Assembly: GCF_028745735.1 (NCBI RefSeq)
Contig: NZ_JAQZSM010000006.1
Coordinates: 62,001-126,000 of the forward strand
Direction: 5' to 3'
Origin: Roseinatronobacter alkalisoli
GTDB taxonomy: Bacteria > Pseudomonadota > Alphaproteobacteria > Rhodobacterales > Rhodobacteraceae
Length of the DNA stretch: 64,000 nt
Shown in pieces: positions 6,243-39,294 of the stretch; positions within the stretch are counted from its first letter, which is position 1, and each line of letters starts with the position of its first letter. The notes beneath the pieces were generated by a model, which was not told where the DNA came from, did not search any database, and saw nothing but the letters and a program-made list of their open reading frames with translations. The translations under genes and the position numbers were made by a program.

Positions 6243-6289
6243 CGCGACCGATCACACCGGAATGTGGCTTTGGGGGATTTCGGCGTGAA

Positions 6290-6440
6290 ACCCCGGTTGA
6301 TACTAACGCAAAGCACGCGCTATCGGCGAGTCAGGAACGGCAGCCCCACATTCAAGGCGTGTGGTGACGCTGGCCAAATCGGCAGGCGCAGGACAGCCAG
6401 ACCTGTGGCGCGGCGGCCTTGCGGCCTTTGGGAATTACCA
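6290..6440 (-). repeat. Degenerate inverted copy of the interspersed intergenic repeat
   Basis: Read on the minus strand, this gap contains a CCCAAAGGCCGCAAGGCCG block, then CTGCGCCTGCCGATTT, then CGCCTTGAATG and GGGCTGCCG, in the same order as the repeat copy at about 27288-27471. The match is imperfect, so this is an older, diverged copy. It occupies most of the gap between the YcgN gene and the PopZ-like gene, which face each other. Confidence 0.5.
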
Positions 6441-6501
6441 ACACCCGGTTCACGCCAGTCCATCCGCAAACGGGGCGTTTCCCGCATTGCCGCACTCAGC
6501 G

Positions 6502-7236: not shown

Positions 7237-7386
7237 TCTGGTCTGCCCTATACCTTACCCGCCCCAAAATCCTGAAGCTGCGCACCTTCTGCCCGGGTGC
7301 GTAGAGAATTCAGAAACAGCTTGTTGAACAATTCTTAACGCCTTGTGGCTGTTCACACAATCTTTTCTGTTGCGTGGCACCATTCG

Positions 7387-8352: not shown

Positions 8353-8551
8353 GGTGACCCTTCGGCATCGCGATACAGGGTGGCAATACCCCCCTCCCAA
8401 ATGGCAGGTAACATCAGGCTAAGGGTATTTCCCTCGCATGTCGATCCATATCGGGGCGGAATTTCCGGCACATGGGTTGCGCCGTGTCAAACCAGCCGTC
8501 ACTTTTGTCGGGTAAGAACAAGCAACCACACCTGCATCTGAAAGGATACCC

Positions 8552-11203
8552 ATGCGCGATTCTGCCCCCCCTTGGGCGACAAAGGCAGAAGATGTTCTGA
8601 ACCAGCTTGACAGCGGGCCTGACGGGCTGGACGACACGGAATGTCGCCAAAGGATGGAACGCTATGGGCCAAACAGATTACCGGACGCCCCCCGCCCCGG
8701 CCGGTTAGTCCGGCTTGCGCGGCAGTTCAACAACCTGCTGATTCTTGTGCTGCTGGGTGCAGCGATTATCACCGCCTTGCTGGGTCACTGGATTGATACA
8801 GGCGTGATCATGGCTGTGGTCATCATTAACGCCGTCATCGGTTTCGTACAGGAAGGCCGGGCGGAAGCCGCGCTGGACGCGCTGCGCGACATGCTGGCCC
8901 CCAAGGCCAATGTCATCCGGGCGGGCAAACGGCAGGCCATTGCAGGTGCCGATCTGGTGCCAGGGGATATTGTCCTGCTGGAAGCGGGTGACAAGGTGCC
9001 CGCGGACTTGCGCCTGCTGGATGTGGCGGGTCTTTCGGTGGAAGAAGCCATTCTGACGGGTGAATCCGTGCCCGTGCGCAAATCCACCCCCCCTGTGGAC
9101 GAAGCGTCCGCGCTGGGGGACCGCAAGCCAATGGCCTTCAGCGGGACAATGGTGGCCGAAGGCACGGGAACAGGGGTTGTCACCGCAACTGGCAAAGATA
9201 CCGAAATTGGCCGCATCAGCACCATGATGGCGCAGGTTCAGACCCTGAAAACCCCGCTGATCCGCCAGATGGAAGTGTTTGCGAAATACCTGACCGGGTT
9301 CATTCTGGCCCTGTCGGCGGGGATATTGGGCTTCACGCTTGCCTTCCGCGACATGCCCTTTGCCGATGCCTTCATGATTGTCGTGGGCCTGTTCGTTGCT
9401 GCCATACCCGAAGGGCTGCCTGCGGTGCTGACAGTGACACTGGCCATCGGCGTGCAGACTATGGCGCGGCGCAACGCCATCATCCGCCGCCTGCCCATCA
9501 TCGAAACACTCGGCGCGGTGTCCACCATCTGTTCGGACAAGACCGGCACATTGACGCGCAATGAAATGATGGTGGCGTCCGTTGTCACAGCGGGCGAAAC
9601 GGCCACTGTCACCGGGCAGGGGTATTCCCCCGAAGGCCACATTCAGGGCGGCGACCACGCCATGCTGGACGCTATGGCAAGGGTCGCGGCACTGTGCAAT
9701 ACCGCAGCCCTGGTGCAGGGCGACAAGGGCTGGCACGTCGAAGGCGACCCGATGGAAGGCGCGCTGCTGGCATTCGCCGCCCGCGCAGGGCGCGACGACG
9801 ACCCCGCGCTGCGCCCCAAACCCCGCGCCAGCATCCCGTTTGATGCGCGCTATCGCTACATGGCCGTGCTGCATGACGGGCAGATCCTGCTGAAAGGGGC
9901 CCCCGAACGGGTGATCGCGCATTGTGACCAGCAAATGGGGCCGGATGGCGCGCAAACGCTGGACCGCAACTATTGGAATGACGCAGCACAGACCATTGCC
10001 AATAACGGCCAGCGTGTGCTGGCACTGGCGCAGATGGCCCATGACGGGGATGACCTGACCCATGACACCGTGGCGAAGGGGTTGATACTGATCGGCCTTG
10101 TCGGGCTGATAGACCCGCCGCGTGAAGAAGCGATTGCCGCAGTCGCCGAATGCCACAGTGCCGGAATTTCGGTCAAGATGATCACGGGCGACCATGCGGG
10201 CACCGCCGCCGCGATTGGCCGGCAGATCGGGCTGAAACAGACTGATACCCCCCTGACCGGCGCCGAAATCGACCAGATGGATGACGCGACACTGGAAACG
10301 GCCATCCGTCGCACCGATATTTTCGCCCGCACCAGCCCCGAACACAAACTGCGGCTGGTACACGCCCTTCAGGCGCATGGCGCGGTTGTGGCCATGACCG
10401 GCGATGGCGTGAATGACGCGCCCGCCCTGAAACGCGCCGATGCGGGCATTGCCATGGGCAAAAAAGGGTCCGAAGCCGCGCGCGAAGCATCAGATTTCGT
10501 GTTGGCTGACGACAATTTCGCATCAATCGCCGAGGCGGTGAAACAGGGACGCACGGTTTATGCCAACCTGAAGAAGGTGATCACCTTCCTGCTGCCGGTG
10601 AACGGGGGTGAATCCATTTCGCTGATCATTGCGGTTCTGTTCGGCTTGATGCTGCCCATCACACCGCTGCAAATTCTGTGGGTCAATATGGTCAGTTCAG
10701 TTGCGCTGGCCATGTCGCTTGCCTTTGAACGCGCGGAAGCGGGAATCATGCGCCACCCGCCGCGCACGGCCAATGCCCCAATCCTGTCGCGCTTCATTTT
10801 GTGGCGGGTTTTTCTGGTGTCCATCCTGTTCGCTATGGGTATTTTCGGCCAGTTCGGTCTGGCACAGGCCCAGGGCGCGGGGCTTGATGAAGCGCGCACC
10901 ATGGCGCTGAACACGCTTGTCGCCATGGAAGTGTTTTATCTGTTTTCCGTGCGCTACCGGCAAGGCTGGTCCATTTCATGGGAAGGGGTCAAGGGCACGC
11001 CCGCTGTGCTGGTTGCGGTGGCGCTGGTGGTCATTCTGCAAGCGGGTTTCACCTATCTTCCGGTCATGCAGGCACTGTTTGACACGGTCGCACTGACCCC
11101 ATGGCAGCTAGTGCAATGTGCGCTGGCGGGTGTGGCTTTGCTGGTGGTTCTGGAACTGGACAAATACGCCGCCCAGACATGGAAAAAACTGGGCACGACA
11201 TGA
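8552..11203 (+). CDS. P-type (P2-like) cation-transporting ATPase
   Basis: This 883-residue protein contains every catalytic hallmark: the TGES actuator loop, the PEGLPAVLTVTLAIG membrane helix 4, the phosphorylation site DKTGTLT, the KGAPE nucleotide-binding motif and the hinge TGDGVNDAPALK. The N-terminal cation_ATPase_N domain (about 1-70) and C-terminal helices are complete. It most resembles bacterial P2 pumps annotated as Ca2+/Mn2+ or CtpF-like. Helix 6 reads LWVNMVSSVALAMSLAFE, so the Asp of the VTDGxPA motif in classical Ca2+ pumps is absent. The transported ion cannot therefore be assigned. The start follows an AAAGGA ribosome site. Confidence 0.92.
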   Translation: MRDSAPPWATKAEDVLNQLDSGPDGLDDTECRQRMERYGPNRLPDAPRPGRLVRLARQFNNLLILVLLGAAIITALLGHWIDTGVIMAVVIINAVIGFVQEGRAEAALDALRDMLAPKANVIRAGKRQAIAGADLVPGDIVLLEAGDKVPADLRLLDVAGLSVEEAILTGESVPVRKSTPPVDEASALGDRKPMAFSGTMVAEGTGTGVVTATGKDTEIGRISTMMAQVQTLKTPLIRQMEVFAKYLTGFILALSAGILGFTLAFRDMPFADAFMIVVGLFVAAIPEGLPAVLTVTLAIGVQTMARRNAIIRRLPIIETLGAVSTICSDKTGTLTRNEMMVASVVTAGETATVTGQGYSPEGHIQGGDHAMLDAMARVAALCNTAALVQGDKGWHVEGDPMEGALLAFAARAGRDDDPALRPKPRASIPFDARYRYMAVLHDGQILLKGAPERVIAHCDQQMGPDGAQTLDRNYWNDAAQTIANNGQRVLALAQMAHDGDDLTHDTVAKGLILIGLVGLIDPPREEAIAAVAECHSAGISVKMITGDHAGTAAAIGRQIGLKQTDTPLTGAEIDQMDDATLETAIRRTDIFARTSPEHKLRLVHALQAHGAVVAMTGDGVNDAPALKRADAGIAMGKKGSEAAREASDFVLADDNFASIAEAVKQGRTVYANLKKVITFLLPVNGGESISLIIAVLFGLMLPITPLQILWVNMVSSVALAMSLAFERAEAGIMRHPPRTANAPILSRFILWRVFLVSILFAMGIFGQFGLAQAQGAGLDEARTMALNTLVAMEVFYLFSVRYRQGWSISWEGVKGTPAVLVAVALVVILQAGFTYLPVMQALFDTVALTPWQLVQCALAGVALLVVLELDKYAAQTWKKLGTT

Positions 11204-11336
11204 GGGGCCACAGCCATTGGCGGGCAGGCGCGCAGCGTATTTCCGTAAAACCCACCATAAACGACATGCTTTGGCCCAATTGCAGCCAGATTTACCCGCC
11301 ATCCAACAAGCTGCGTACTTGTGTCCGGAGCATGTT

Positions 11337-12425
11337 ATGAACAGTACAATCATTGTCCGCGGAACCGCGATTGCCATTGTCGGCATTGCAGCATCCATCT
11401 TCGCCGCGAAGGAATTCATTCGCGATACGCCCCAGCAACAGGCCGGAATGCAGCAGACCGTGCCGAAAAACACAAATGGCACCTTCGTCGGGGCCAGCCT
11501 GATCGGCGCGGGCGTCGGACAAAGCAACGAGGCCGCGCCCGACGCATCGCCGGAACTGCGCCTGAGCGCCGGAACACAGAATTCTGATACACCCGTCGTA
11601 CCGGAACTGACCCTTGGCGCGCTTGACACCGGGCGTACGGGCGATACCGCGCCGCGCATTGACAGCGATTTCCGCCCCGACCTGGCATTGGCCGATGCAG
11701 AGTTGCATAACAGCGACACGCATTGCGCGCCCAGTATCGACGTGACCGCCAGTGTGGACGCGCTGCTTGATCTGCGTATTCTGGCGCCCTGCAACCCGTC
11801 AGAGCGTATTGTAATCAGCCATGGCGATCTGGCCTTCAGCGCCTATACATCCGGCGAGGGCGCATTCTCGGCCTATCTTCCCGCCCTGACAGCGACCGCA
11901 AGCGTTGATGCATATCTGGCTGATGGCACCTTGTTGCAAGCACAGGCAAACGTGCCGGATATCGCGCAGCATCATCGGGTTGTCGTGCAATGGACCGGTG
12001 ATTTCGGGATCAGCCTGCATGCATTCCATCACGGCGCGGCATATGGGACCAGCGGGCATATCCATGCCGCCAACCCGTTTGACCCGAATATGGATGCGTC
12101 CTTCATCATCCGTCTGGGAGAGGCGCGCGGGCCGGAACCTATGCTGGCGCATGTCTATTCCATTCCCGCCGCTATGCTTGAACAGTCCCGCATGGAACTG
12201 GAAGCCCTGCACGACACCCGCAGTTGCGGGCTGGATCTGGCGGCCTATGTCCTGCAGATCAGTGGCGGGCAGCAGGCCGAACTCAAGGAAATGACGCTTG
12301 CAATGCCCGGCTGCGACCAGCCACAGGGGGTGGCGGTCATGCCACTGCCATTTGAACATGCGCGCCAGCCGGAACCGCAGGCCGCGGAATACAGCGCGCT
12401 GTCACTGGCCACCCGTCAGAAATAG
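11337..12425 (+). CDS. Membrane-anchored or exported protein of unknown function
   Basis: The ATG at 11337 follows a GGAG site six bases upstream and gives a 362-residue protein with one N-terminal hydrophobic segment (about residues 7-24), then a Thr/Asp/Ala-rich extracytoplasmic region. Segments such as LLDLRILAPCNPSERIVISH and a GxAYGTSGHIHAANPFDP stretch look structured. I recall similar proteins in Rhodobacteraceae under vague names such as 'translocase', but no function is supported. Two or three scattered cysteines could form disulfides. It follows the ATPase gene on the same strand after about 130 bases. Confidence 0.7.
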   Translation: MNSTIIVRGTAIAIVGIAASIFAAKEFIRDTPQQQAGMQQTVPKNTNGTFVGASLIGAGVGQSNEAAPDASPELRLSAGTQNSDTPVVPELTLGALDTGRTGDTAPRIDSDFRPDLALADAELHNSDTHCAPSIDVTASVDALLDLRILAPCNPSERIVISHGDLAFSAYTSGEGAFSAYLPALTATASVDAYLADGTLLQAQANVPDIAQHHRVVVQWTGDFGISLHAFHHGAAYGTSGHIHAANPFDPNMDASFIIRLGEARGPEPMLAHVYSIPAAMLEQSRMELEALHDTRSCGLDLAAYVLQISGGQQAELKEMTLAMPGCDQPQGVAVMPLPFEHARQPEPQAAEYSALSLATRQK

Positions 12426-12545
12426 CGCCGGGATTCGCTTTGCGCGATCCGGTGGGCTGCGCAATACAAGAAGACAGCGCCCTTCGCGTGAATGCAGGTG
12501 AACACGCCGGACCCCGTTGCCGGGGCCTTACAGACCGCCATCAGG

Positions 12546-13322
12546 TTACAACAGACCGGCACTGCGAAAGCTAAGCTCGCAGGATTGTCCGATGACGATA
12601 TGGTCATGCAAGGTGATCGACAGGGCGTCGCACCCCGCCCGGATGGTTTCGGTCATGGAAATGTCAGCTTGTGATGGTGTCGGGTCACCCGACGGGTGAT
12701 TGTGCACCAATATCAACGCCGATGCATTCAGCTCCAGCGCCCGCCGCAGGATTTCACGCGGATAGACCGGCACATGATCAACAGTGCCCTGCCCCTGCGC
12801 TTCGTCCGCGACAAGGACATTCTTCCGGTCCAGGAACAGCACGCGAAATTCTTCCGTTTCGCGGTGGGACATGGCAGTGTGGCAATAATCCAGAAGCGCG
12901 GCCCAGCTGGAAATCACGGGCCTGTGCATAACCTTCGCGCGGGCCATGCGCTGCGCGCAGGCTTCTGCCAGTTTCAGCTCGACAATAACCGCGTCCCCCA
13001 CCCCATCCACAGTGCGCAACCGTGCGGCAGGGGCGGCGATAACGCGGTTCAGGTCGCCGAATGTATCAATCAGGCGGCGCGCAAGGGGTTTCACATCCTG
13101 CCGCGGGATGGCCCGAAACAACAGCAATTCCAGCAATTCGTAATCCGGCATCGCCCCTGCACCACCATCCAGAAACCGCGCACGCAGCCGTTTGCGATGG
13201 TCACGCAGATAGGATGGCGTGCGCGTGTGCAAGTTGGTGGGCGCAGCGGCGACAGCAATTGCGCCCCCTGCCCCGAAAAGGGGCAGTGCCGCATCTGAAA
13301 ATCCTGAACTGTCCTGTTTCAT
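12546..13322 (-). CDS. radC: RadC family JAB/MPN domain protein
   Basis: This 258-residue protein has the N-terminal helix-hairpin-helix region (YELLELLLFRAIPRQD, TVDGVGDAVIVELK) and the C-terminal JAMM metalloprotease-like motif, HNHPSGDPTPSQAD, with the upstream DEAQGQGTVD segment. The length and order match RadC (UPF0758). The family was named for DNA repair, but that role has been disputed and the true activity is unclear. It is read leftward and ends close to the 3' end of the unknown protein gene, so the two converge. Confidence 0.95.
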   Translation of the reverse strand: MKQDSSGFSDAALPLFGAGGAIAVAAAPTNLHTRTPSYLRDHRKRLRARFLDGGAGAMPDYELLELLLFRAIPRQDVKPLARRLIDTFGDLNRVIAAPAARLRTVDGVGDAVIVELKLAEACAQRMARAKVMHRPVISSWAALLDYCHTAMSHRETEEFRVLFLDRKNVLVADEAQGQGTVDHVPVYPREILRRALELNASALILVHNHPSGDPTPSQADISMTETIRAGCDALSITLHDHIVIGQSCELSFRSAGLL

Positions 13323-13378
13323 GCCGGTTATTCTGCCCCGAAGGGACTAAAAAACCGTTAACCATGGCGGGAGCAAAT

Positions 13379-14542
13379 TCAGTTTTTCATGCCATCCCAG
13401 AATCCTTTGACCTTGTCAAAGAAACCGCTGCTTTCGGGGTTGTTTTCCGCGCTCAGCTTTTCGAACTCTTCTAGCAGTTCCTTCTGGCGCGCAGTCAGAT
13501 TGACCGGCGTTTCCACTGCCAGTTCGATCAGCATATCGCCATGCCCGCCGCCACGTAGCGCAGGCATGCCCTTGCCGCGCAGGCGCATCTGCCGCCCCGA
13601 CTGGCTGCCTGCCGGAACCTTGACGCGCGAACGCCCGCCATCGATCGTGGGCACTTCGACTTCACCGCCAAGCGCGGCGCGGGCCATGCTGACAGGCACA
13701 TGGCAATAAAGCGTCACGCCATCGCGCTTGAATATCTGATGCTCGGCGACATTGACGAAGATATACAGATCCCCCGCAGGGCCGCCGCGCAGGCCCGCTT
13801 CGCCTTCGCCCGACAGGCGGATGCGTGTGCCGGTTTCCACGCCTGCGGGAATATTAACCGACAGGGTGGATTCCTTCTCGACTCGCCCGGCCCCACCGCA
13901 GGCGGCACAGGGGTTCTTGACGATCTGGCCATTCCCGCCACAGGTCGGACAGGTGCGTTCAACTGTGAAAAAGCCCTGCTGCGCACGGACCTTGCCCATA
14001 CCCGAACAGGTCGGACAGGTGACAGGTTCCGCGCCCCCTTCGGCACCGGTGCCATTACAGGCGTCGCATTGCGACAGGCGCGGCACGCGAATGGTCTTGC
14101 GCGTCCCGCTGAAGGCTTCTTCAAGGGTGATGCGCAGATTGTAGCGCAGGTCCGACCCGCGACTTGCCCGCGAACGCGCGCCGCCACGCCCGCCGCCGAC
14201 AAAATCGCCGAACAGGTCTTCGAACACATCGGAAAACGCGCTGGCAAAATCGCCATTGCCCCCGAAACCCCGCGCGCCGGCAGCACCCGGATGGCCGCCA
14301 CCGCCACCCATGCTGCCATCAAATGCCGCATGGCCAAAGCGGTCATATGCGGCCTTGCGGTCCGGGTCTTTCAGCGCGTCATAGGCCTCATTGGCTTCCT
14401 TGAACTGCGCTTCGGCATTGGGGTTGTCGGAATTGCGGTCAGGGTGCAATTCCTTGGCCTTTTTGCGATAGGCTTTCTTGATTTCCTCGGCAGAGGCGGA
14501 ACGGTTGACACCCAGAACTTCATAGAAATCGCGTTTGGCCAT
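13379..14542 (-). CDS. dnaJ: Chaperone protein DnaJ
   Basis: This is a full-length 387-residue DnaJ. The J domain at 1-70 has the HPD motif ([12 protein letters not shown]). A Gly/Phe-rich stretch follows (about 75-130, [17 protein letters not shown]), then four zinc-finger repeats [24 protein letters not shown] and CAACGGAG, then the C-terminal substrate-binding domain. It stimulates the ATPase of DnaK and delivers substrates to it. It lies 73 bases downstream of dnaK on the same strand, the classical dnaKJ operon. Confidence 0.98.
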
Positions 14543-14615
14543 GTGGGATCACTTTCCAATAATGCAACCGGCCTGAACAGGGCTCAGACCGGCTGCGGGT
14601 TACCTGCCAGAGGAG

Positions 14616-16529
14616 TTACTTGCGCTTGTCGTCGTCAAGATCTTCGAAATCGGCGTCAACAATGTCGTCATCCACACTGCGCGGTTCATCTGCATCGGTA
14701 TCACCGCCTTCGGCGGCTTCGGCCTGTGCCTTGTAGATGGCTTCACCCAGTTTCATGGAGGCCTCGGTAACGTTCTGGATGCCAGACTTGATCTTGCCCG
14801 CATCTTCGGTTTCGACCGTTTCCTTCAGCGCGGCGATTGCCAGTTCAATCGCTTCAACTGTGGTCGGGTCCACCTTGTCCTTATGCTCTTCCACGGCTTT
14901 TTCGGTCGAATGGATCAGGCTTTCAGCCTGGTTCTTCGCCTCTACCAGTTCGCGGCGTTTCTTGTCGGCTTCGGCATTTGCTTCGGCGTCCTTGACCATC
15001 TTCTCGATATCGTCATCGGACAGACCACCGGATGCCTGAATGGTGATCTTCTGTTCCTTGCCGGTGCCCTTGTCCTTGGCCGACACGTTGACAATGCCGT
15101 TGGCGTCGATATCGAAGGTCACCTCGATCTGGGGCATGCCGCGCGGTGCTGGCGGGATATCTTCCAGATTGAACTGGCCCAGCATCTTGTTATCGGCCGC
15201 CATTTCCCGCTCGCCCTGGAATACACGGATCGTCACCGCGCTCTGGTGGTCCTCGGCGGTGCTGAACACCTGGCTTTTCTTGGTCGGGATGGTGGTGTTG
15301 CGGTCGATCAGGCGGGTAAATACCCCGCCCAGCGTTTCAATACCAAGTGACAGCGGCGTGACGTCCAGCAGCACGACATCCTTGACGTCGCCTTGCAGAA
15401 CACCGGCCTGAATGGCCGCGCCCATGGCCACAACTTCGTCAGGGTTCACGCCTTTATGCGGTTCCTTGCCGAAGAAATTGGTCACTTCTTCCATCACCTT
15501 GGGCATGCGGGTCATACCGCCGACCAGAATCACCTCATCAATGTCGCCCTTGGACAGGCCCGCATCCTTCAGCGCCGCGGCGCAGGGTTTCAGCGAGTTC
15601 CTGATCAGGTCACCCACCAACGATTCCAGCTTGGCGCGTGTCAGTTTCATGACAAGGTGCAGCGGCTGGCCGGTGTTCTTGTCCATGCTGATGAAGGGTT
15701 GGTTGATTTCTGTCTGGCTGGAACTGGACAGTTCGATCTTGGCCTTCTCGGCGGCTTCTTTCAGGCGCTGCAGGGCCATCTTGTCCAGCGTCAGGTCAAC
15801 GCCATTCTCTTTCTTGAATTCATCGGCCAGGTAATTGACGATGCGCATGTCGAAATCTTCACCACCCAGGAACGTGTCCCCGTTGGTTGATTTCACCTCA
15901 AACAACCCGTCATCGATTTCCAGAATGGTAATGTCGAACGTACCGCCACCAAGGTCATAAACCGCGATGGTACGGGTTTCTTTTTTGTCCAGACCATAGG
16001 CCAGCGCGGCAGCGGTGGGTTCGTTGATGATGCGCAGCACTTCAAGGCCCGCAATCTTGCCCGCATCCTTAGTGGCCTGACGCTGAGCGTCGTTGAAATA
16101 GGCCGGAACCGTGATGACAGCCTGCGTGACCTTTTCACCCAGATAGCTTTCGGCGGTTTCCTTCATCTTTTGCAGGATGAAGGCGGAAATCTGGCTGGGG
16201 CTATATTTTTCACCGCGCGATTCAACCCATGCATCGCCATTGCCGCCGTCGATGATGTTATAGGGGACAAGTTTCTTGTCCTTCTCGACCTCGGCATCGG
16301 TCAGGCGGCGACCGATCAGGCGCTTGACAGCAAAAACAGTGTTGGTCGGGTTTGTCACGGCCTGACGCTTGGCGGGCTGGCCGACAAGGCGTTCATTTTC
16401 CGTGAAGGCCACGATAGACGGCGTGGTACGCGCGCCTTCGGCGTTTTCGATAACCCGTGCGCTCGCCCCGTCCATGATGGCAACGCAGGAGTTGGTGGTC
16501 CCAAGGTCGATCCCGATGACTTTAGCCAT
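14616..16529 (-). CDS. dnaK: Chaperone protein DnaK (Hsp70)
   Basis: The protein is 637 residues from [14 protein letters not shown]. The phosphate 1 motif IDLGTTNS, the adenosine and connect motifs ([21 protein letters not shown]), the linker [15 protein letters not shown] and the acidic tail ending [13 protein letters not shown] are all present. The ATG at 16529 has an AAGAGGA ribosome site. The frame continues upstream to 16673, but that part is not DnaK-like. It is the main ATP-dependent folding chaperone and is transcribed with dnaJ, probably from a heat-shock promoter (16631-16661). Confidence 0.98.
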
Positions 16530-30906: not shown

Positions 30907-31629
30907 TCAGCCGATCCGGGCGAATGCGTCGCGCAGTGCCTGTGACCATGCGGCGGACATGGCGGCGAAATCCTCGTCATTGGCCTCGATGCGGCGGTGT
31001 TCGCTGACGCGCAACGCATCCGTTTCAATAATGGCCATATCCAGCGGCATCCCCACGCTCAGGTTGGAACGCAGTGTTGAATCCATCGACAACAGCACGG
31101 CCTTGCGGGCCTCTTCCAGGGGGGTGTCGGCGGTAATTACGCGGTCCAGAATGGGTTTTCCGTATTTATGCTCGCCTATCTGCAGATAGGGCGTGTCATC
31201 CGTGGCTTCGATGAAATTGCCTTCGGGATAGATCAGGAACAGACGCATGCGCCCGCCCCGGCGCTGGCCGGCCACAATCATGGATGCCGTTGCCGCCTGA
31301 TTCATCCGGTCCATCCGCGCCTTGGTTTCGGCAGTCACATGCGACAGCATTTCACCGGTAATCGTGGCAACATCCAGCATGCTTTCGGCCCGCATGATGG
31401 AGGTTTGCGGCGTCGCTTCGGGGTCATCAACAGCTTCGCCCAGACGTGCCAGCGTGGTCTGGGTGACCGACAGATTGCCTGCGGTCATCATGACGATCAC
31501 ACGTTCACCGGGTTCTTCGAACGTAAACATCTTCCGATAGACGGAAATATTGTCCAGACCCGCATTCGTGCGCGTGTCCGACAGCAAAACCAATCCCGCC
31601 TTCAGCAGCAGCCCCACGCAATATGTCAT
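30907..31629 (-). CDS. Anbu-type proteasome-like peptidase
   Basis: The 240-residue protein begins MTYCVGLLLKAG: removing Met exposes Thr2, the expected nucleophile of a proteasome-fold hydrolase. Asp18 (SDTRTN) and Lys33 (YRKM) sit where proteasome beta subunits have Asp17 and Lys33. The family (Anbu, the 'ancestral beta subunit') forms open helical or ring-like assemblies. Its substrates are unknown. Its identity is supported by the three genes upstream on the same strand, which are the standard Anbu companions. Confidence 0.93.
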   Translation of the reverse strand: MTYCVGLLLKAGLVLLSDTRTNAGLDNISVYRKMFTFEEPGERVIVMMTAGNLSVTQTTLARLGEAVDDPEATPQTSIMRAESMLDVATITGEMLSHVTAETKARMDRMNQAATASMIVAGQRRGGRMRLFLIYPEGNFIEATDDTPYLQIGEHKYGKPILDRVITADTPLEEARKAVLLSMDSTLRSNLSVGMPLDMAIIETDALRVSEHRRIEANDEDFAAMSAAWSQALRDAFARIG

Positions 31630-31690
31630 CGCGCCTTTCCAAATAAACCAGCCCGCAAGTGTTAACGCCCTGCCGGTGGGGCCGCAAGGG

Positions 31691-32509
31691 TCATTGCTGC
31701 TGGGCTTCGATCACAACTGTCACGTCCAGCACTTCGGCACCGCCGCCCAGCACAAGCCCGCGCAAAGGCGCGGCATTCTGCGCATCAAGCCCCGAGCCAA
31801 GCCGGATATATTGATCATTCGGGCAGCATTTATTCGACGCGTCGAAGCCCACCCATCCCAATCCTTCAATGTAGATCTCCGCCCAGGCATGGCTGGCTTC
31901 ATGCGCACTGCCATCTTCGGTCGCATTCAGATAGCCACTGACATAGCGGGCGGGAAAATCGGCCAGATGCGCACAGGAAATCAACACCTGCGTATGATCC
32001 TGGCACACGCCCGCACCCGCATTCATGGCCTCGGCGGCGGTGGTATGGGCATGGGTTGCACCGGGGCGGTAAGGCAGTGCTTCCGACACGGCGGCCGCCA
32101 GCAGATGCGCGTGTTCCAGTGCGCTTGCCGATGCCGCATCGCGCAATGTGTCCTGCACCAGATCCACAATCGCGCGGTTCGGTTCGGTCCGCACAGTGTT
32201 GCGCAAATAGGCACGCGGCGGCACACGTTCCCTGTGCCCGCGCAAAACACCTGCGGTATCAATGGTTTCGATTGTGCCACTGACCGTGATTTCAATATGC
32301 TCCACCCGCTTTCGCAGTGAAATGGTCTGGATATAATCGCCTGCCCCGTCACGAAACGCCTCTCCCATCACGGCGTCGGGCACATCCACCGACCAGTTGA
32401 TCACCTTCTGGCTGTCGCATTTCGCAGGTGTCAGGCGCAGGCTTTGGATGATGCCTGCCACGGGACTGGCAAAATCATAGCGGGTTTTATGAAAAACCTT
32501 CAAAATCAT
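31691..32509 (-). CDS. Transglutaminase-like cysteine protease/amidase of the Anbu cluster
   Basis: The 272-residue protein has a beta-sandwich N-terminal domain (about 1-100, typical YDFASPVAGIIQSLRLTP start) and a transglutaminase core with Cys169 (GVCQDHT), His207 (ASHAWAE) and Asp223 (FDASN), a complete catalytic triad. Predicted to cleave or transfer amide bonds, perhaps in modified peptides. It overlaps the alpha-E gene by four bases (ATGA). Confidence 0.93.
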   Translation of the reverse strand: MILKVFHKTRYDFASPVAGIIQSLRLTPAKCDSQKVINWSVDVPDAVMGEAFRDGAGDYIQTISLRKRVEHIEITVSGTIETIDTAGVLRGHRERVPPRAYLRNTVRTEPNRAIVDLVQDTLRDAASASALEHAHLLAAAVSEALPYRPGATHAHTTAAEAMNAGAGVCQDHTQVLISCAHLADFPARYVSGYLNATEDGSAHEASHAWAEIYIEGLGWVGFDASNKCCPNDQYIRLGSGLDAQNAAPLRGLVLGGGAEVLDVTVVIEAQQQ

Positions 32510-33459
32510 CGCGCTTCCCCCGTCAGATACTGGTCATGGATCGCCTGTGCCAGCCCGCCGTTTACATTGATCATGCGCGTCAGGAATTCATGCAGCCCTT
32601 CATCAAATACATCGTCGATATGCGCCTCTGCCAGTTCACCCAACAGCGTGCGGGCACCTTCCTGCGCCGGGGTGGACCGCCCATAGACACGCGCCAACTG
32701 GTCCAGGTGTTCATTCGCCTGCGCATAGCATGACAGCAGCGAACGCGGAAATTTCGGGTTCAGCAGCAGGAAATGTGCAATCTGAACAGATGTCAGTTCC
32801 CCCCCATAGGCCCAGTTATAGGCCCTGTGGGCAGACAAGGCGCGCAGCAGCGTGGTCCATTGGTAATTGTCCAGCCCCGACCCGACATAGGCAACCGACG
32901 GCAGCAGCACATAATATTTCACATCCAGCAGCCGCGCGGTGTTATCCGCACGTTCCACCGCATAGCCCAGATTCATGAAATTATAGCCGTCAATGCGCAA
33001 TTGGGTCGATTCAATCGCGCCACGGATCAGCGAACTGGTGCGGATGGTCCAGTCTGTCAGATCGGGGATCGACAGTTTCGACCGCTCCGTCCGCTGCATG
33101 GCCATCAGTTCCTGATAGCTGGTGTTGATCGCATCCCAGACCTGACTTGTCAGCGCCGTGCGCACAATGCGCGCATTTTCCCGCGCGGACCGGATGCAGC
33201 TTGCCACGGATGACGGGTTTTCCATGTCGAAAAACAGGAAGCTTTCAACATTGCGCTGCACGATTTCACCGTATTTATCGGTAAAGGACTGCAACACCCC
33301 CTTACTTTGCAGAATGGCGCCCCATTCATTGCGATAGCCCCCGCCGGTATTGGGCAGAAGCGCATTGCGAAACCCCATATCCAGCAGGCGGGCAGTGGTT
33401 TCAGAACGTTCCAGAAAACGGGTCATCCAGAACAGATTCGCGGCTGTACGGCTTAGCAT
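32506..33459 (-). CDS. Alpha-E domain protein of the Anbu cluster
   Basis: The 317-residue, almost wholly helical protein starts with MLSRTAANLFWMTRFLERSE, the standard alpha-E opening, and contains conserved RADNTARLLDVKYY and YNWAYGG segments. Biochemical activity is unknown; genome analyses place it with ATP-grasp and transglutaminase proteins in a predicted peptide-synthesis or modification system. It begins one base after the ATP-grasp stop and overlaps the transglutaminase start. Confidence 0.92.
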   Translation of the reverse strand: MLSRTAANLFWMTRFLERSETTARLLDMGFRNALLPNTGGGYRNEWGAILQSKGVLQSFTDKYGEIVQRNVESFLFFDMENPSSVASCIRSARENARIVRTALTSQVWDAINTSYQELMAMQRTERSKLSIPDLTDWTIRTSSLIRGAIESTQLRIDGYNFMNLGYAVERADNTARLLDVKYYVLLPSVAYVGSGLDNYQWTTLLRALSAHRAYNWAYGGELTSVQIAHFLLLNPKFPRSLLSCYAQANEHLDQLARVYGRSTPAQEGARTLLGELAEAHIDDVFDEGLHEFLTRMINVNGGLAQAIHDQYLTGEAR

Positions 33460-33460
33460 G

Positions 33461-34879
33461 TCATTCCTCCGCGATAACCCAGGTGTCCTTGACGCCGCCG
33501 CCCTGACTGGAATTCACCACCAGCGACCCATCGGTCAGGGCAACGCGCGTCAACGCACCGGGAACCAGTTCGACATCGCGCCCGACAAGGCAATAGGGCC
33601 GCAGATCAACATGGCGTGGCGCGATACCTTCATCCACGAAAGTCGGGCATGTAGACAGCGCAAGCGTTGGCTGGGCGATGTAATTCGACGGGTTTTCAGC
33701 CACTTTTGCCGCGAATGCTTCAACCGTCGCGCGGTCGGAAGCGGGGCCGACCAGCATGCCATAGCCGCCCGAGCCATGTACTTCCTTGACCACCAGTTCC
33801 CCGATATTTTCCAGCACATATTTCAGATCATCCGATTTGGCGCATTGCCATGTCGGCACATTGTCCAGAATAGGTGTTTCCCCAAGATAGAAGCGCACCA
33901 TTTCAGGTACGTAGGTATATATCGCCTTGTCATCGGCCACGCCCGCACCGGGGGCGGAACAGATTGTCACCCCGCCAGAGCGATAGACATTCATCAGCCC
34001 CGGCACGCCCAGCGTGGAATCTGGGCGGAAACACAACGGGTCAAGGAAAGCATCATCAATACGGCGATAAATGACATCCACCTTGCGCGGCCCTTCGGTC
34101 GTGCGCATCCAGCAGAAATCCCCTTCGACGAACAGATCCTGCCCTTCGACCAGTTCAATCCCCATCAGATCCGCCAGAAAGGAATGTTCATAATAGGCCG
34201 AATTGAAATGCCCCGGCGTCAGCAGCACCACACAAGGGTCACGGTCGCATTTCGCGGGCGCGACAGATGCTAGGGTGCGCTTCAGCAGCCGTGCATAGCC
34301 ATCAACTGGCGCCACGCGGTTTTCCTGAAACAGATGCGGGAACATGCGCATCATGACTTCGCGGTTTTCCAGCATATAGGACACACCCGAAGGGGTGCGG
34401 CAGTTGTCTTCCAGAACATAGAACTGCTCGGCCCCTGTGCGCACCAGATCAATGCCCACGATATGGCTGAAAATTCCCAAGGGCGGGCGGAACCCGGCCA
34501 CGGCAATTTCATAGGCATCATTTCGGTAAACCAGATCAGCGGGGATCAGTCCTGCGCGGACAATCTCGCCCCGGTCATAGACATCGGACAGGAATGCATT
34601 CAACGCGCGGGCACGTTGCTTGATGCCGCGTTCCAGCTTGCGCCATTCCTGCGCCGTGAATACGCGCGGAAACATGTCAAACGGGATCAGCCTGTCGGGG
34701 TCGCCCCCTTCGCCATAAACCGCGAAGGTAATGCCATAGCGGCGAAACAGGTCTTCGGCCTCTGCCTGTTTCAGGGCGCGGAATTCGGCGGGCATGTTCT
34801 GATACCAGCCTTCCAGCATTTGATAAGGTGCCCGTAACCCGTCTGACGCATACATTTCATTGAAAAAACTGGCCACCAT
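33461..34879 (-). CDS. Circularly permuted ATP-grasp protein of the Anbu cluster
   Basis: The 472-residue protein begins FFNEMYASDGLRAPYQMLEGW and carries the type-2 circularly permuted ATP-grasp elements: VYGEGGDPDRLIPFD, FRPPLGIFSHIVGIDLVR, VLEDNCRTPSGVSYMLENRE, a HGSGGYGMLVG glycine loop and the LRPYCLVGRDV end. It would catalyse an ATP-dependent carboxylate-amine ligation, plausibly making a short peptide or adding residues to a protein. It is first in the operon ATP-grasp, alpha-E, transglutaminase, Anbu. The gap 34880-34998 upstream shows no clear feature. Confidence 0.92.
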   Translation of the reverse strand: MVASFFNEMYASDGLRAPYQMLEGWYQNMPAEFRALKQAEAEDLFRRYGITFAVYGEGGDPDRLIPFDMFPRVFTAQEWRKLERGIKQRARALNAFLSDVYDRGEIVRAGLIPADLVYRNDAYEIAVAGFRPPLGIFSHIVGIDLVRTGAEQFYVLEDNCRTPSGVSYMLENREVMMRMFPHLFQENRVAPVDGYARLLKRTLASVAPAKCDRDPCVVLLTPGHFNSAYYEHSFLADLMGIELVEGQDLFVEGDFCWMRTTEGPRKVDVIYRRIDDAFLDPLCFRPDSTLGVPGLMNVYRSGGVTICSAPGAGVADDKAIYTYVPEMVRFYLGETPILDNVPTWQCAKSDDLKYVLENIGELVVKEVHGSGGYGMLVGPASDRATVEAFAAKVAENPSNYIAQPTLALSTCPTFVDEGIAPRHVDLRPYCLVGRDVELVPGALTRVALTDGSLVVNSSQGGGVKDTWVIAEE

Positions 34880-34998: not shown

Positions 34999-37035
34999 TC
35001 AGGACGGATGCGCGCGGGCCTGCCGGGCATTCAGCCAGTTTATCGACAGCAGCACCAACAGCACCCCCGCACCGGCCACCTCCACAGTGAAGGATGGCCA
35101 GAACAGCGCAACCACCGCAGGCAGGGCAAGCAGACGCGAGAGCGCATCCATCCGCCCGAACAGATACCCTTCGATTGCGCTGGCAAAGGCCACCAGTCCC
35201 AGTATCGCAGTGAACCCTGTCCAAAGCACATGTGGCAGCGGCCCACCATAGATGATTTCGGGATTGAACACCATGAACAGCGGAATCAGATACAGGCCCT
35301 TGGCGAATTTCCACGCCTGCATGGATGTTTCCATGGGTTTGGCCCCGGCCACAGCGGCACCGGCAAAACCCGCAAGAGCAACTGGCGGTGTCACGTTACT
35401 GTCCTGACTATACCAGAACACCACCAGATGCGCGATCAGCAGCGGAATGCCGAATTCATTGTGCAACGCCGGGCCAACCAGCACGATCAGCACGATATAG
35501 CTGGCCGTGACCGGCAACCCCAACCCCAGCACCAGCGATGCAATCAGCACCAGCCCCAGCGCCAGCACGATGTTGCCACCCGAAAGTGCCACCATCATGG
35601 AACTGAATTTCAGCCCCAGCCCGGTCAGCCCGACAACCCCAACGATGATACCTGCAACCGCGCAGGCAATCGACACCGCAACTGCATTGCGCGCGCCCAG
35701 TTCCAGCGATTCAAATATCATGCGCAGCCCGCGCATGACCGACGCCAGCACCCTTTCGCGCGTGACCGGCCCATCGGCCATTACCGCCCAGGCCCCGCGC
35801 AGCCCCGCAACGCCCACCACCGACAATATGGCCCAGAACCCCACCCGCATGGGCGATATATTGTTGACCAGCAGCACCACCAGCAGCACCAGCGGCACAA
35901 TGAATTGCCACCCCGCCGCCAGAACATGGCGCACAATGGGCAATTCTGCCGCCGACATCCCCGTCATGCCCTGTTTCATCGCCACGATATGCACGAACAG
36001 ATATACCGTGCCCAGATACAGGATTGCCGGAAAGATCGACACAAGAACAATGTCGATATAGGGAACCTGCGTATATTCGGAAATCAGGAACGCCCCTGCC
36101 CCCATCAAGGGCGGCGTGATCTGCCCGCCAGTGGATGCGGCGGCTTCAATGCCCCCCGCCTGTTTTGGCTTATAGCCCAGGCGTTTCATCAGCGGGATGG
36201 TGAAGGCCCCGGTTGTCACCACATTGGCGATGGCCGAGCCAGAAATTGACCCCATCCCCGCCGAAGCCAGCACCGCCGCTTTCGCAGGTCCGCCCGGCTT
36301 GCGCCCTGTTGCCGCAAAAGCAAGATCAATGAAGAACTTGCCCGCGCCGGTCTTTTCCAGAAAGGCCCCGAACAACACGAACATGAACACGAATGTCGCG
36401 GCCACGCCCAGCGGCAGGCCGAATATCCCTTCCTGCCCCAGATACAACTGCCCCACCAGCCGGTCCACATTCGCGCCGCGATGCGACAGGATACCCGGCA
36501 TCCATTCGCCCACCTGCGGCAAAGCCCCGCGCGGCCCCGCCAGCGCATAGATGATGGCCAATGCGCCGATGATGGTCATGCCCAGCCCTACTGCGCGGCG
36601 GCTGGCTTCCAGCACCGCGATGATGCAGATAATACCCACGGTGATGTCTGTTGCGGTCCACCAGCCGGCGCGCGCGATGATATCATCCAGATACCAGATG
36701 ATATAGAACCCGCTGATGAAGGCCGCAGTCAGAAAGCCCGCATCGATGACCCAGCCCAAGGCCCCGCGCGCGCGCGTCTGTCCGAACACCGGAAAGATCA
36801 GGAAGGCCAGAAACAACACAAAGCCCAGATGCGCAGTGCGCTGATAGAACAGGCCCAGCGGCTGAATGCCGGCAGTGTATAGCTGAAACAGCGACAGCAT
36901 GATCGCCACAACCGTGATCAGCCACAGTACCGGTCGCGGCTGATACGCATCAGCAGATCGCAGGTTTGACGGAATGACCCCGCCTTCCACCCGGTCAGGT
37001 TGCATGGTGTCGGGAGTATTCAAGTGTGATGCCAT
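34999..37035 (-). CDS. TRAP transporter fused permease (DctQM fusion, TAXI type)
   Basis: The protein has about 678 residues with many membrane helices. The first four correspond to the small DctQ-like subunit and the rest to the DctM-like transporter (GFLEKTGAGKFFIDLAFA, GSISGSAIANVVTTGAFTIPLMKRLGY, the hallmark SGSAIANV motif, and GLGLPVTASYIVL). It moves a small carboxylate or amino acid with Na+ or H+. I use the ATG at 37035 (MASHLNTP); no start has a strong ribosome site and 37005 or 37101 are alternatives. It works with the DUF1850 and TAXI genes upstream. Confidence 0.9.
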   Translation of the reverse strand: MASHLNTPDTMQPDRVEGGVIPSNLRSADAYQPRPVLWLITVVAIMLSLFQLYTAGIQPLGLFYQRTAHLGFVLFLAFLIFPVFGQTRARGALGWVIDAGFLTAAFISGFYIIWYLDDIIARAGWWTATDITVGIICIIAVLEASRRAVGLGMTIIGALAIIYALAGPRGALPQVGEWMPGILSHRGANVDRLVGQLYLGQEGIFGLPLGVAATFVFMFVLFGAFLEKTGAGKFFIDLAFAATGRKPGGPAKAAVLASAGMGSISGSAIANVVTTGAFTIPLMKRLGYKPKQAGGIEAAASTGGQITPPLMGAGAFLISEYTQVPYIDIVLVSIFPAILYLGTVYLFVHIVAMKQGMTGMSAAELPIVRHVLAAGWQFIVPLVLLVVLLVNNISPMRVGFWAILSVVGVAGLRGAWAVMADGPVTRERVLASVMRGLRMIFESLELGARNAVAVSIACAVAGIIVGVVGLTGLGLKFSSMMVALSGGNIVLALGLVLIASLVLGLGLPVTASYIVLIVLVGPALHNEFGIPLLIAHLVVFWYSQDSNVTPPVALAGFAGAAVAGAKPMETSMQAWKFAKGLYLIPLFMVFNPEIIYGGPLPHVLWTGFTAILGLVAFASAIEGYLFGRMDALSRLLALPAVVALFWPSFTVEVAGAGVLLVLLSINWLNARQARAHPS

Positions 37036-37155
37036 CGGGGCTGCCCTGTCACTGGTGCATGTTGCGCGGAAGTGGGAACCGGTCCTGCGCTTTTGGGACA
37101 TGCGTTATCAGAAGGTTCAAAGGAAGATGCACGAAGGTGAATGAACGCGCATCCA

Positions 37156-37629
37156 TCAGGGGTGAGTATTCAGATGCAACCAGACCCGCGCGCCCTGCGC
37201 CGCTTCCGCAGAAAGGGCCAGTTCCTGCGTCGCGTCGGTCAGCCTGTGCCCGGTTTGCACGGACCCTATACGCAGCGACAGGCTGTTTGCGGGAATAACC
37301 TCGTCCATGCCGACAATCCAGTACCCGCCCCCCTGCGCGGGAATCAGACTGCCACGGCCCGTAACTTCGCCCAGGCCCGCTGCGAAATCATGCAGGTAAC
37401 TGCGCGTCAGCGTCAGTTGGCCCGCACGGTTTTCGAAGCAATCCGCCACTGCGCCCCCGGTCACGGAATGCGCCCAGCGCAGACAGATTTCCGCACCTTC
37501 GGGCATAGGCAACTGGCCCAGCAAATCGCCCGTTGGCAAACGCGCCTGCAAGGCAGGGTCGGCGGTAGCAATCGTTGGCAGGAACAGGGCGGCCAGTACC
37601 AGCCGCCCCGAAATACCATCTGCCATCAC
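37156..37629 (-). CDS. DUF1850 protein, TAXI-TRAP accessory
   Basis: The 157-residue protein has a signal-like N-terminus (GRLVLAALFLPTIATA) and the DUF1850 core (ICLRWAHSVTGGAVADCFEN, LTRSYLHDFAAGLGE). Members are regularly found next to TAXI-type TRAP genes, but the function is unknown. Its start overlaps the stop of the solute-binding gene by four bases, and it precedes the permease gene. Confidence 0.85.
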   Translation of the reverse strand: MMADGISGRLVLAALFLPTIATADPALQARLPTGDLLGQLPMPEGAEICLRWAHSVTGGAVADCFENRAGQLTLTRSYLHDFAAGLGEVTGRGSLIPAQGGGYWIVGMDEVIPANSLSLRIGSVQTGHRLTDATQELALSAEAAQGARVWLHLNTHP

Positions 37630-38585
37630 GGACGCTGATGGTCCTGCGGGGTCGCGCCCGCTTCTTCCAGATAGCGCAGCGTGCCGGGGTGGAAGGGAAT
37701 GGGCGTTGAATCAACGCTGAATTCCACAGTCGTGTCATTCGCGGCGGGGTGAATGGCTATCAGTTCATCCACGTTTTCATACATCGCCTTGGTGATGTTA
37801 TAGGCCAGTTCATCATCCATATCTGCATGTACGATCAGCACATTCGGGGTTGATATGGTCAGAACAGGTTCTTCCATGCCGTCATATAGCCCTGCGCGCA
37901 GCGAATACGGCGCGAAAGTCGGCTCCGCCGCGATTGCTGCGGCAATTTCTTCCGTGCTCAGCGCAACCATGCTGATGGACCGCGTTGTGGCCAGGTTCAT
38001 GATGGAACTAGTGGGTGGCCCCACACTCCAGAAGCCCGCATCAATATCTCCGTCACGCAGCGCATCGGCGGTTTCGTTGAAATTCAGGCGCTGCGCGTTG
38101 ATGTCATCATAGGTGATGCCATTTGCCGCCAGCAGGGTTTGCGCGCTGACTTCGGTGCCCGACCCCGGCGCACCCACTGACACACGCTTGCCGCGCAGGT
38201 CTTCAAGGCTGGTGATGCCACTATCGGCCAGTGTCACAAGCTGCACGGCATTGGGATAGATCGACGCAATCGCGCGCAGTTCATCCACCTGACGCCCTTC
38301 AAACGCGCCTTCGCCATGGAACGCCTGATACACGGTATCCGCCAGCGCCAGTGCCAGATCGGAATCAAACCGCGAGATCAGCGCCACGTTTTCCACCGAT
38401 GCGCCGGTGACTTCCGCACTTGCGGACGCACCTTCGACATGGCGGTTGATCACTTCGGCCAGACCACCACCATAGGGAAAGTAAACCCCGCCGGTGCCAC
38501 CTGTGGCAATGGACAATTCCTGCGCCTGAACGGGGGCTGTCAACAGGGCCGTTGCAGCCGCGAGTGCTGCAAATCGATAAGTCAT
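37626..38585 (-). CDS. TAXI-family TRAP solute-binding protein
   Basis: The ATG at 38585 follows GGGAGGA and gives 319 residues with a signal peptide (AALAAATALLTAPVQA, cut near residue 22). The mature protein starts LSIATGGTGGVYFPYGGGLAEVIN, the TAXI family signature, and contains GKRVSVGAPGSGTEVSAQ. It binds the substrate in the periplasm, commonly glutamate, alpha-ketoacids or related compounds in this family; the ligand here is unknown. Confidence 0.93.
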   Translation of the reverse strand: MTYRFAALAAATALLTAPVQAQELSIATGGTGGVYFPYGGGLAEVINRHVEGASASAEVTGASVENVALISRFDSDLALALADTVYQAFHGEGAFEGRQVDELRAIASIYPNAVQLVTLADSGITSLEDLRGKRVSVGAPGSGTEVSAQTLLAANGITYDDINAQRLNFNETADALRDGDIDAGFWSVGPPTSSIMNLATTRSISMVALSTEEIAAAIAAEPTFAPYSLRAGLYDGMEEPVLTISTPNVLIVHADMDDELAYNITKAMYENVDELIAIHPAANDTTVEFSVDSTPIPFHPGTLRYLEEAGATPQDHQRP

Positions 38586-38697
38586 TGGTATCCTCCCAGG
38601 ATCATTGTTTTTGTTTTTTCTGATCGCAAGCGATCTATGGGAAAGACTAGCCGCGCTTTGAGCGTCGCGCAAGTATTGTAGGGCAGGATTGCGCAGG

Positions 38698-39294
38698 CTA
38701 ATCCCCGAACACCACCGGCACAAGGGACGCCACCAGCAACGCAGCCATGGAATAGTTGAACACCCGCAGCCAGTCAGGGCGCTGCAACAGGCGGCGCACC
38801 CCCATACCAAGCCCTGTCCATATGACCGTAGAGGTCCAGCCCACACATAAAAACCCCGCCGCCACCCAGGCCACAGCCCCCCATTCCTGCCCCGGTGCAT
38901 AGATTGACACTGCACCAAGCGAAATGACCCATGCCTTGGGGTTGACCCATTGAAACGCCGCCGCCTGCACGAATGTCAGCGGCCGCCCCTTTGCGCTGGC
39001 CCCATCCGGGGGGGCGGCATTGGCAATTTTCCACGCCAGCCACAGCATATAGACAACCGAAACCAGCTTCAGCGCCATCTGCGCGGGCGGGTAGCCGATG
39101 AAAATACCCATCAGCCCGACACCTACCAGAAACACCATTGCCGCATGGCCGATGGCAATTCCTGCCATATGCGGGACGGTACGGCGAAACCCGAAATTCA
39201 CGCCGGAGGCCAGCAACATCACATTATTCGGCCCCGGCGTGGCCGAGGTCACGAAGGCAAAAGCAAGCAGCGCAAGGAAAAGTTCTGTTGTCAT
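38698..39294 (-). CDS. LysE-family amino acid exporter
   Basis: The 198-residue protein has five to six membrane helices and the family motifs TSATPGPNNVMLLASGVNFG (about 17-36) and FQWVNPKAWVISLGA. It exports amino acids or related compounds. The ATG at 39294 (MTTELFLALLAF) is chosen over a Met eight codons upstream, as LysE proteins begin close to the first helix. It is divergent from an Lrp-type gene, the usual regulator-exporter arrangement. Confidence 0.92.
   Translation of the reverse strand: MTTELFLALLAFAFVTSATPGPNNVMLLASGVNFGFRRTVPHMAGIAIGHAAMVFLVGVGLMGIFIGYPPAQMALKLVSVVYMLWLAWKIANAAPPDGASAKGRPLTFVQAAAFQWVNPKAWVISLGAVSIYAPGQEWGAVAWVAAGFLCVGWTSTVIWTGLGMGVRRLLQRPDWLRVFNYSMAALLVASLVPVVFGD

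Follow-up and report, generated by a model that had tools for sequence, protein, structure and literature searches.

Anbu is encoded in an operon that has been described in Yersinia bercovieri and Pseudomonas aeruginosa, and Anbu structures have been solved (PMC6376114, PMC5666114). Tagging, degradation and other ideas are listed for Anbu in PMC6376114, where none is given as confirmed, and our literature search found no later study settling its function. HslV and the 20S proteasome have their Ntn fold and N-terminal Thr in common with Anbu, but the Anbu operon lacks an AAA+ unfoldase and Anbu itself lacks a propeptide. A second amidoligase system has ATP-grasp, Alpha-E and transglutaminase domains in common with the Anbu operon. 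It is composed of a transglutaminase-DUF2126 protein (frames of ~1,110-1,230 aa), an ATP-grasp/Alpha-E fusion (~800 aa) and a short transglutaminase. ATP-grasp enzymes are also paired with a peptidase in RimK/RimB and in the Rlo system of P. aeruginosa, which comprises the aspartic peptidase RloA, the inactive transglutaminase RloB and the ATP-grasp RloC (PMC12239564). Rlo thus includes a transglutaminase-fold protein, as the Anbu operon does, but its peptidase has another fold and is secreted, RloB is membrane-bound, and Alpha-E is not named in the description of Rlo in PMC12239564. Rlo and RimK/RimB are best regarded as functional analogues only.

The locus studied here lies in a 64,000-nucleotide stretch of Roseinatronobacter alkalisoli DNA (the window). 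Its protein families, gene order and Anbu Thr/Asp/Lys residues equal those reported for Y. bercovieri and P. aeruginosa (PMC6376114, PMC5666114), and both the published operon and the window cluster are without an AAA+ partner. We found no essential difference between them: the window cluster is the canonical Anbu operon, complete and intact. It is not a new system, since this operon already has solved Anbu structures and published, inconclusive biochemistry (PMC5666114, PMC6376114). The published set probably makes, and then breaks down, a small peptide or amide product.

Features of the Anbu operon in the window
Feature	Coordinates	Strand	Description
Circularly permuted ATP-grasp ligase	33461..34879	-	First gene, 472 aa
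Alpha-E protein	32506..33459	-	317 aa; ER motif twice
Transglutaminase-fold protein	31691..32509	-	272 aa; Cys169-His207-Asp223
Anbu, proteasome-beta-like Ntn hydrolase	30907..31629	-	240 aa, Met-Thr start

A sequence-only reading of the window had proposed a complete set of these four families with overlapping or nearly overlapping genes, and had linked it to the published prediction of peptide synthesis or tagging. The link was right, all the open reading frames were found on the minus strand between 34879 and 30907, in the order ATP-grasp, Alpha-E, transglutaminase, Anbu, and all four proteins exceeded the Pfam cut-offs. The description of the junctions applied to the first two, ATP-grasp and Alpha-E being 1 nt apart and the Alpha-E stop overlapping the transglutaminase start by 4 nt (ATGA), while the 61 nt between the transglutaminase and Anbu genes make them near neighbours without overlap. 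An HslUV-type AAA+ partner was not found among the four genes. The cluster is flanked on one side by a DctM/TAXI-type transporter block and on the other by an ArsR gene and then ATP-synthase F0 genes.

Anbu matched PF00227 (Proteasome) with 29.6 bits (cut-off 22.4), and phmmer aligned it with five solved Anbu sequences (5loy, 5nyj, 5nyf, 5nyw and 5lox; E 4e-75 to 9e-62). Its N-terminus, MTYC, places Thr directly after Met without a propeptide; in P. aeruginosa Anbu, crystal structures and mass spectra are reported to show this Thr exposed (PMC5666114). T2, D18 and K33 (Met counted) correspond to the catalytic T1, D17 and K32/33 of the family. The sequence-only reading had staked the predicted activity on the conservation of catalytic residues in close homologues, and for Anbu all 102 aligned sequences had the three. 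The S1 pocket (T20, Y30, T48, L52, T55) was like that given for the Anbu-1 subtype (T20, F30, T48, L52, S55; PMC5666114), differing conservatively from P. aeruginosa at positions 30 and 55, and the S1 positions compared did not show the basic Anbu-2 pocket. C169, H207 and D223 of the transglutaminase were likewise present. The inference that the system is probably active was reasonable from this conservation, yet it went beyond the evidence, since purified Anbu of several species left standard proteasome peptides uncleaved (PMC6376114). Overall, that interpretation was partly supported.

In order to compare gene order, we fetched 80 named relatives by an Anbu search. All four genes were matched in 71 of them, and 70 of these 71 kept the identical order on one strand; the exception was L104, whose contig ends in an ATP-grasp fragment on the opposite strand. 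Four incomplete loci hit a contig end (L063, L080, L116 and L125), and five carried Anbu without the other three genes nearby (L089, L100, L108, L109 and L140), two of which, L108 and L109, were also near a contig start. The shared four-gene order is far beyond chance. The alignments used here were made without L033 and L118, which have broken frames, and kept only rows at 85-125% of the window length; these rows (102 for Anbu, 97 for the transglutaminase, 98 for Alpha-E and 91 for ATP-grasp) include the window and some genomes twice (L041/L103, L040/L110), so that they are not independent. These data bear on the view of the cluster as a relic, either degenerate or silent. The two broken-frame copies would fit it, as would a sigma-70 scan that found four sites where 2.5 were expected and none upstream of the first gene, a simple scan that says little in this organism. 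As the window frames are intact, the Anbu residues do not vary and 70 of the 71 four-gene loci keep their order, we consider a relic highly improbable. The neighbouring TRAP/TAXI transporter, DUF1850, LysE and Lrp genes were rejected as members of the system. Among the six closest named loci (L061-L066, of which L063 and L065 are cut short) the transporter was upstream only in L064, and the 29 wider family loci (L032-L060), mapped by tblastn, gave no more than distant matches to it, in L033, L050 and L060. The downstream ArsR and ATP-synthase F0 genes were kept in five of the six closest loci, L063 being too short.

The distribution of the genes was determined in 61 same-family genomes, that of the window included. 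Anbu was present in 44, all of which carried the ATP-grasp gene, and this gene was also found in 4 of the 17 genomes without Anbu (Fisher p 3.6e-10, ignoring the relatedness of the 61 genomes). All 13 genomes lacking the ATP-grasp gene lacked Anbu. In 43 of the 44 genomes the two genes were near neighbours on a single contig, the exception being an assembly that is 79% complete (G021). These results weigh on the possibility that Anbu serves protein turnover as a general self-compartmentalised protease, for instance under nitrogen limitation, the other genes being loosely connected or regulating it by modification. The authors of PMC5666114 prefer this role, with which several of their reported features agree: a proteasome-like active site, an open-ring dodecamer, the binding of the proteasome inhibitors MG132 and epoxomicin by Thr1 of P. 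aeruginosa Anbu, and an Anbu that is induced when P. putida is short of nitrogen. However, general proteolysis does not predict that Anbu is missing from all 13 sampled genomes without the ATP-grasp gene, none of the four genes supplies an unfoldase, and the genome itself holds a second Proteasome-family gene with a higher score (90.5 bits against 28.5 for Anbu), presumably HslV. We therefore regard a general protease as unlikely.

The ATP-grasp protein matched the whole PF14403 model (CP_ATPgrasp_2; 539 bits, positions 1-374 of 374), PF04174 (487 bits) and, by phmmer, PDB 3n6x (E 7.5e-193). At least 98% identity was seen at 118 positions, counted in an alignment of 91 sequences that misses the rows of some relatives. 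Its Y. bercovieri counterpart is reported to release phosphate from ATP (PMC6376114, PMC5666114). Alpha-E matches were found in the identical 48 of 61 genomes as those of ATP-grasp, the Alpha-E of one (G030) being a fragment at a contig end. In the second amidoligase system, which unlike the window cluster has DUF2126 and no Anbu, both domains matched within one frame of ~800 aa in four genomes (G004, G006, G016 and G048), and in L055 Pfam found CP_ATPgrasp_2 and Alpha-E in one protein of 796 aa. This shared distribution and the single frame argue for pairing of ATP-grasp with Alpha-E, possibly as a physical complex. In one genome (G025) a full Anbu operon was followed immediately downstream by the second system, and the genome of the window had a single Alpha-E gene and no DUF2126 match.

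Alpha-E matched PF04168 with 298 bits, and its AlphaFold2 model was all-helical (pLDDT 88.7, pTM 0.88). It carries two ER motifs, E17-R18 and E169-R170, whose four residues were present in 98 of 98 aligned sequences; R14 is conserved as well. HHalign aligned residues 12-92 with 164-248 (probability 97.5, E 8e-12, score 74.2), while the top score of 20 column shuffles was 17.0. By this comparison, Alpha-E is an internal duplication of the ER-motif unit. A solved relative was not found by sequence (best E 0.44), and none of 303 Foldseek matches to the PDB at E up to 10 reached 0.001 (best 0.13).

The transglutaminase matched PF01841 (Transglut_core, 67 bits), PF08379 (Bact_transglu_N, 62 bits) and PDB 3isr (E 5.9e-9). 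Unlike Anbu, it bore out the expected conservation only in part: His and Asp were present in 97 of 97 aligned sequences and Cys in 95, two relatives having lost the Cys, and the gene was missing from three related clusters in which a divergent long transglutaminase-DUF2126 fusion gene adjoins the ATP-grasp gene. As judged from these sequences, the transglutaminase is the flexible component of the cluster, one that lineages can replace, inactivate or lose. According to published proposals (refs 15 and 16 as summarised in PMC6376114), proteins are tagged with a peptide or amine by ATP-grasp and transglutaminase, and Anbu either strips the tag, as a deubiquitinase would, or degrades the tagged proteins. 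That the operon combines two folds that form amides with one that cleaves them fits these proposals. Nevertheless, attachment cannot depend in all lineages on a short transglutaminase that some clusters lack or carry without its Cys, unless the long transglutaminase genes of those genomes stand in, and the junctions leave no space for a tag-encoding gene between the window genes. Protein tagging is in our judgement decidedly improbable.

The cluster occurs in the family as two sequence types, and within each genome the genes present share a type by best match. The types were separated by identities of ≥68% against ≤58% for Anbu, ≥76% against ≤68% for ATP-grasp, ≥55% against ≤45% for Alpha-E and ≥51% against ≤42% for the transglutaminase. 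Anbu of the window's type was found in 14 of the 60 other sampled genomes. Pairwise distances of the four genes were correlated (r 0.77-0.90; 84 rows, ignoring shared ancestry). Anbu identity to the window was 68-75% in 11 genomes and 44-54% in 25, whereas RpoB identities of the same two groups overlapped (81-93% against 74-84%), 22 of the 25 second-group genomes reaching at least the lowest value of the first; the ATP-synthase A chain overlapped too. This comparison omits the window's own genome, the intermediate G004, G015 and G039, and four genomes in which the RpoB match was absent or fragmentary (G008, G021, G024 and G028). The types could reflect either horizontal exchange of the cluster or old divergence, since the first group also had slightly higher RpoB values and every distance was taken to a single query.

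If the operon makes and then breaks a small peptide or amide conjugate in a cycle, a reading to which we give an even chance, it would work as follows. The ATP-grasp protein would activate a carboxylate with ATP and join it to an amine, and Alpha-E, either a subunit partnered with it or a carrier of the substrate, would complete the ligase core. A methionine aminopeptidase would free the Anbu Thr1, Anbu would hydrolyse or trim the ligase product, which we infer to be its substrate, and the transglutaminase-fold protein would contribute an accessory acyl-transfer or peptidase step. The cycle of ligase core and Anbu is suggested by the way the occurrence of Anbu depends on the ligase gene, two assemblies excepted, by the concordant types and correlated distances of the four genes, and by the invariant Anbu catalytic residues. 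Rlo offers a precedent: in P. aeruginosa mutants without the three secreted Rlo peptidases, mutations in the rlo ATP-grasp or inactive-transglutaminase gene are reported to rescue the defects (PMC12239564). The operon may also have a nitrogen-related role: besides the Anbu induction reported for P. putida (PMC5666114), urea-metabolism domains associate with Alpha-E, transglutaminase and CP-ATP-grasp domains in marine metagenomes, as reported in PMC3597751. Against the cycle, in the tests of PMC6376114 Anbu left the standard peptides uncleaved, the ATP-grasp protein was not stimulated by Anbu, and specific interactions of Anbu with the remaining operon proteins were not seen, and the authors of PMC5666114 consider a peptide-synthesis role less likely than protein degradation. 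Co-distribution would also be expected from genes merely sharing a transferable cassette. Furthermore, of ten genomes selected because their loci looked odd, G061 (locus L089) and G064 (locus L109), metagenome assemblies of unstated completeness outside the 61-genome sample, had Anbu without a detected ATP-grasp gene, and three (G062, G063 and G065) had the two genes apart.

Comparison with the relatives suggests which parts are indispensable. We tentatively propose, as a possibility somewhat on the doubtful side, an obligate ATP-grasp/Alpha-E core with interchangeable hydrolase modules. Anbu would clear the product of the core, the transglutaminase would be swappable for the transglutaminase-DUF2126 protein (the three related loci representing one group) or kept dead, and the duplicated helical Alpha-E would serve as carrier or substrate-binding ligase subunit. 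Anbu is a bacterial relative of the proteasome, and the natural variants of its operon, namely ligase without Anbu, replaced or dead transglutaminase and DUF2126 clusters, rank its parts and narrow the question of function to a few deletions and metabolomic comparisons.

The four operon genes of the window lie in the order ATP-grasp, Alpha-E, transglutaminase and Anbu, the last being a proteasome-beta-like Ntn hydrolase (Table). In gene order, the first junction spans 1 nt, the second is an ATGA overlap of 4 nt and the third spans 61 nt. In a profile search all four proteins passed the Pfam cut-offs, and none matched NCBIfam at 0.001. The transglutaminase matched 3isr with an E value of 5.9e-9. 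Genes for a DctM-type TRAP transporter, a DUF1850 protein and an NMT1/TAXI-type binding protein were located upstream of the operon (window 34999-38918) and were not kept at that place in most relatives. The Anbu operon and its predicted role are already published, and the copy in the window is a typical member. Citing papers trace the prediction reportedly to Iyer et al. in 2009. Among the matches listed for open-licence papers on Anbu, and on Alpha-E with ATP-grasp, none was a later study of what the operon does, and 'DUF2126' was mentioned in none of the open-licence papers searched.

Table. Genes of the Anbu operon in the window and Anbu clusters of relatives that lack the short transglutaminase
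Feature	Position	Strand	Genome	Details
Circularly permuted ATP-grasp protein	first of four genes within 34879-30907	-	window	472 aa; Pfam; matches 3n6x
Alpha-E	second of four genes, 32506-33459	-	window	317 aa; Pfam
Transglutaminase-fold protein	third of four genes within 34879-30907	-	window	272 aa; Pfam; matches 3isr
Anbu	last of four genes within 34879-30907	-	window	240 aa; Pfam; matches five solved Anbu sequences
Anbu cluster without short transglutaminase	L045:3040-9732		G039	
Anbu cluster without short transglutaminase	L048:3095-9732		G015	
Anbu cluster without short transglutaminase	L046:5384-10785		G008	

Each operon protein was searched for in the window's genome and 60 other genomes of its family (n=61). 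Anbu was detected in 44 genomes, Alpha-E and ATP-grasp in 48 each and the transglutaminase, counting any transglutaminase match, in 46. The ATP-grasp gene accompanied Anbu in 44 out of 44 genomes, and four genomes (G017, G030, G048 and G059) carried ATP-grasp and Alpha-E without Anbu. In G030 the Anbu gene may be missing from the assembly only, since the cluster meets a contig end. A search of G048, which is 99% complete, found no Anbu, and MoxR-type AAA and DUF58 genes followed ATP-grasp, Alpha-E and transglutaminase in its place. The transglutaminase at this locus (L052, 6194-12178) has extra sequence inserted between its Cys region and its His region. When ten genomes chosen for odd-looking loci were considered, 8 had the ATP-grasp gene; the metagenome assemblies G061 and G064 contained Anbu and a search for ATP-grasp detected none, which speaks against a strict rule that Anbu implies ATP-grasp. 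Matches to all four genes were present in 71 out of 80 named loci, 70 of them in the usual order. Three Paracoccus loci (L121:5827-7833, L135:5848-7818 and L138:4613-7489) presented an opposite-strand gene between transglutaminase and Anbu, of 5'-nucleotidase/metallophosphoesterase-type sequence (Pfam on L121 only). One genome held a second, broken ATP-grasp copy (L059:4561-5828; G013:C1:1490554-1491821) as well as an intact cluster. The window's own genome (assembly of 4.84 Mb), whose nearest named relatives by Anbu were Roseinatronobacter and Natronohydrobacter strains and Rhodobacteraceae metagenome bins, encodes one Alpha-E, one protein resembling the operon ATP-grasp protein and one Proteasome-family member besides Anbu, presumably HslV; a search of this assembly found no DUF2126.

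T2, D18, K33 and G51 of Anbu (window numbering, Met counted) were invariant in 102 out of 102 sequences, the window being among the rows and some genomes appearing twice. The S1-pocket positions of the window Anbu were those of the Anbu-1 subtype as described in passages of PMC5666114, with Tyr instead of Phe at 30 and Thr instead of Ser at 55. Alpha-E kept W11, R14, E17, R18, R93, E169 and R170 in all 98 sequences. Its AlphaFold2 model was confident (pLDDT 88.7, pTM 0.88); a Foldseek search of this model against the PDB returned nothing at E 0.001 or better, and a sequence search for solved relatives found none, the sole match having E 0.44. Profile alignment matched residues 12-92 to 164-248 (probability 97.5, score 74.2), while 20 column shuffles scored at most 17.0. 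Judging from this sequence alignment, Alpha-E therefore looks like a tandem internal duplication of an ER-motif unit.

The transglutaminase appeared as the flexible part of the operon. His207 and Asp223 were invariant in 97 aligned sequences and Cys169 in 95 of these 97. Full-length frames at L070:7091-7954 and L126:7105-7959 retained His and Asp but had an altered Cys region, with Pro and Ala replacing the catalytic Cys; because this region changed differently in each, the Cys was probably lost twice. Both genomes have long transglutaminase frames elsewhere, which, to judge by sequence, could supply the missing activity. At L045, L046 and L048, no transglutaminase match was found between Alpha-E and Anbu, and a long, divergently transcribed gene adjoins the ATP-grasp gene. 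In L045 and L048 this gene encodes a transglutaminase domain, with Cys, His and Asp seen, fused to DUF2126 (Pfam), which Pfam labels a putative amidoligase; in L046 it is broken off by the contig end, and a DUF2126 start is present on the same contig. In G015 and G039, searches gave no further match to Alpha-E, ATP-grasp or DUF2126. In a tree of 31 sequences the three Anbu proteins grouped together with support 96/81, so a single origin of the arrangement suffices; L047, whose Anbu falls in the same neighbourhood, retains the short transglutaminase. Both this arrangement and the Cys-less transglutaminases belong to relatives, not to the window. In L055 (G025, 4226-15081), a full Anbu operon was directly followed by a second system comprising transglutaminase-DUF2126, an ATP-grasp/Alpha-E fusion and a short transglutaminase.

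Passages of PMC5666114 report that P. aeruginosa Anbu exposes Thr1 and binds inhibitors, and passages of PMC6376114 that the Y. bercovieri ATP-grasp protein sets phosphate free from ATP; these papers also describe Anbu as inactive on standard proteasome substrates (PMC5666114, PMC6376114) and specific interactions among the operon proteins as not detected (PMC6376114). A link to nitrogen is suggested by the induction of P. putida Anbu under nitrogen limitation, cited in a passage of PMC5666114, and by marine metagenomes, in which Alpha-E, transglutaminase and CP-ATP-grasp domains are associated with domains of urea metabolism according to passages of PMC3597751; operon expression was unchanged under various other conditions, according to the passage of PMC5666114 concerned. 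Altogether, the findings fit a ligase core that ATP-grasp and Alpha-E would form, with a product that Anbu would cleave.
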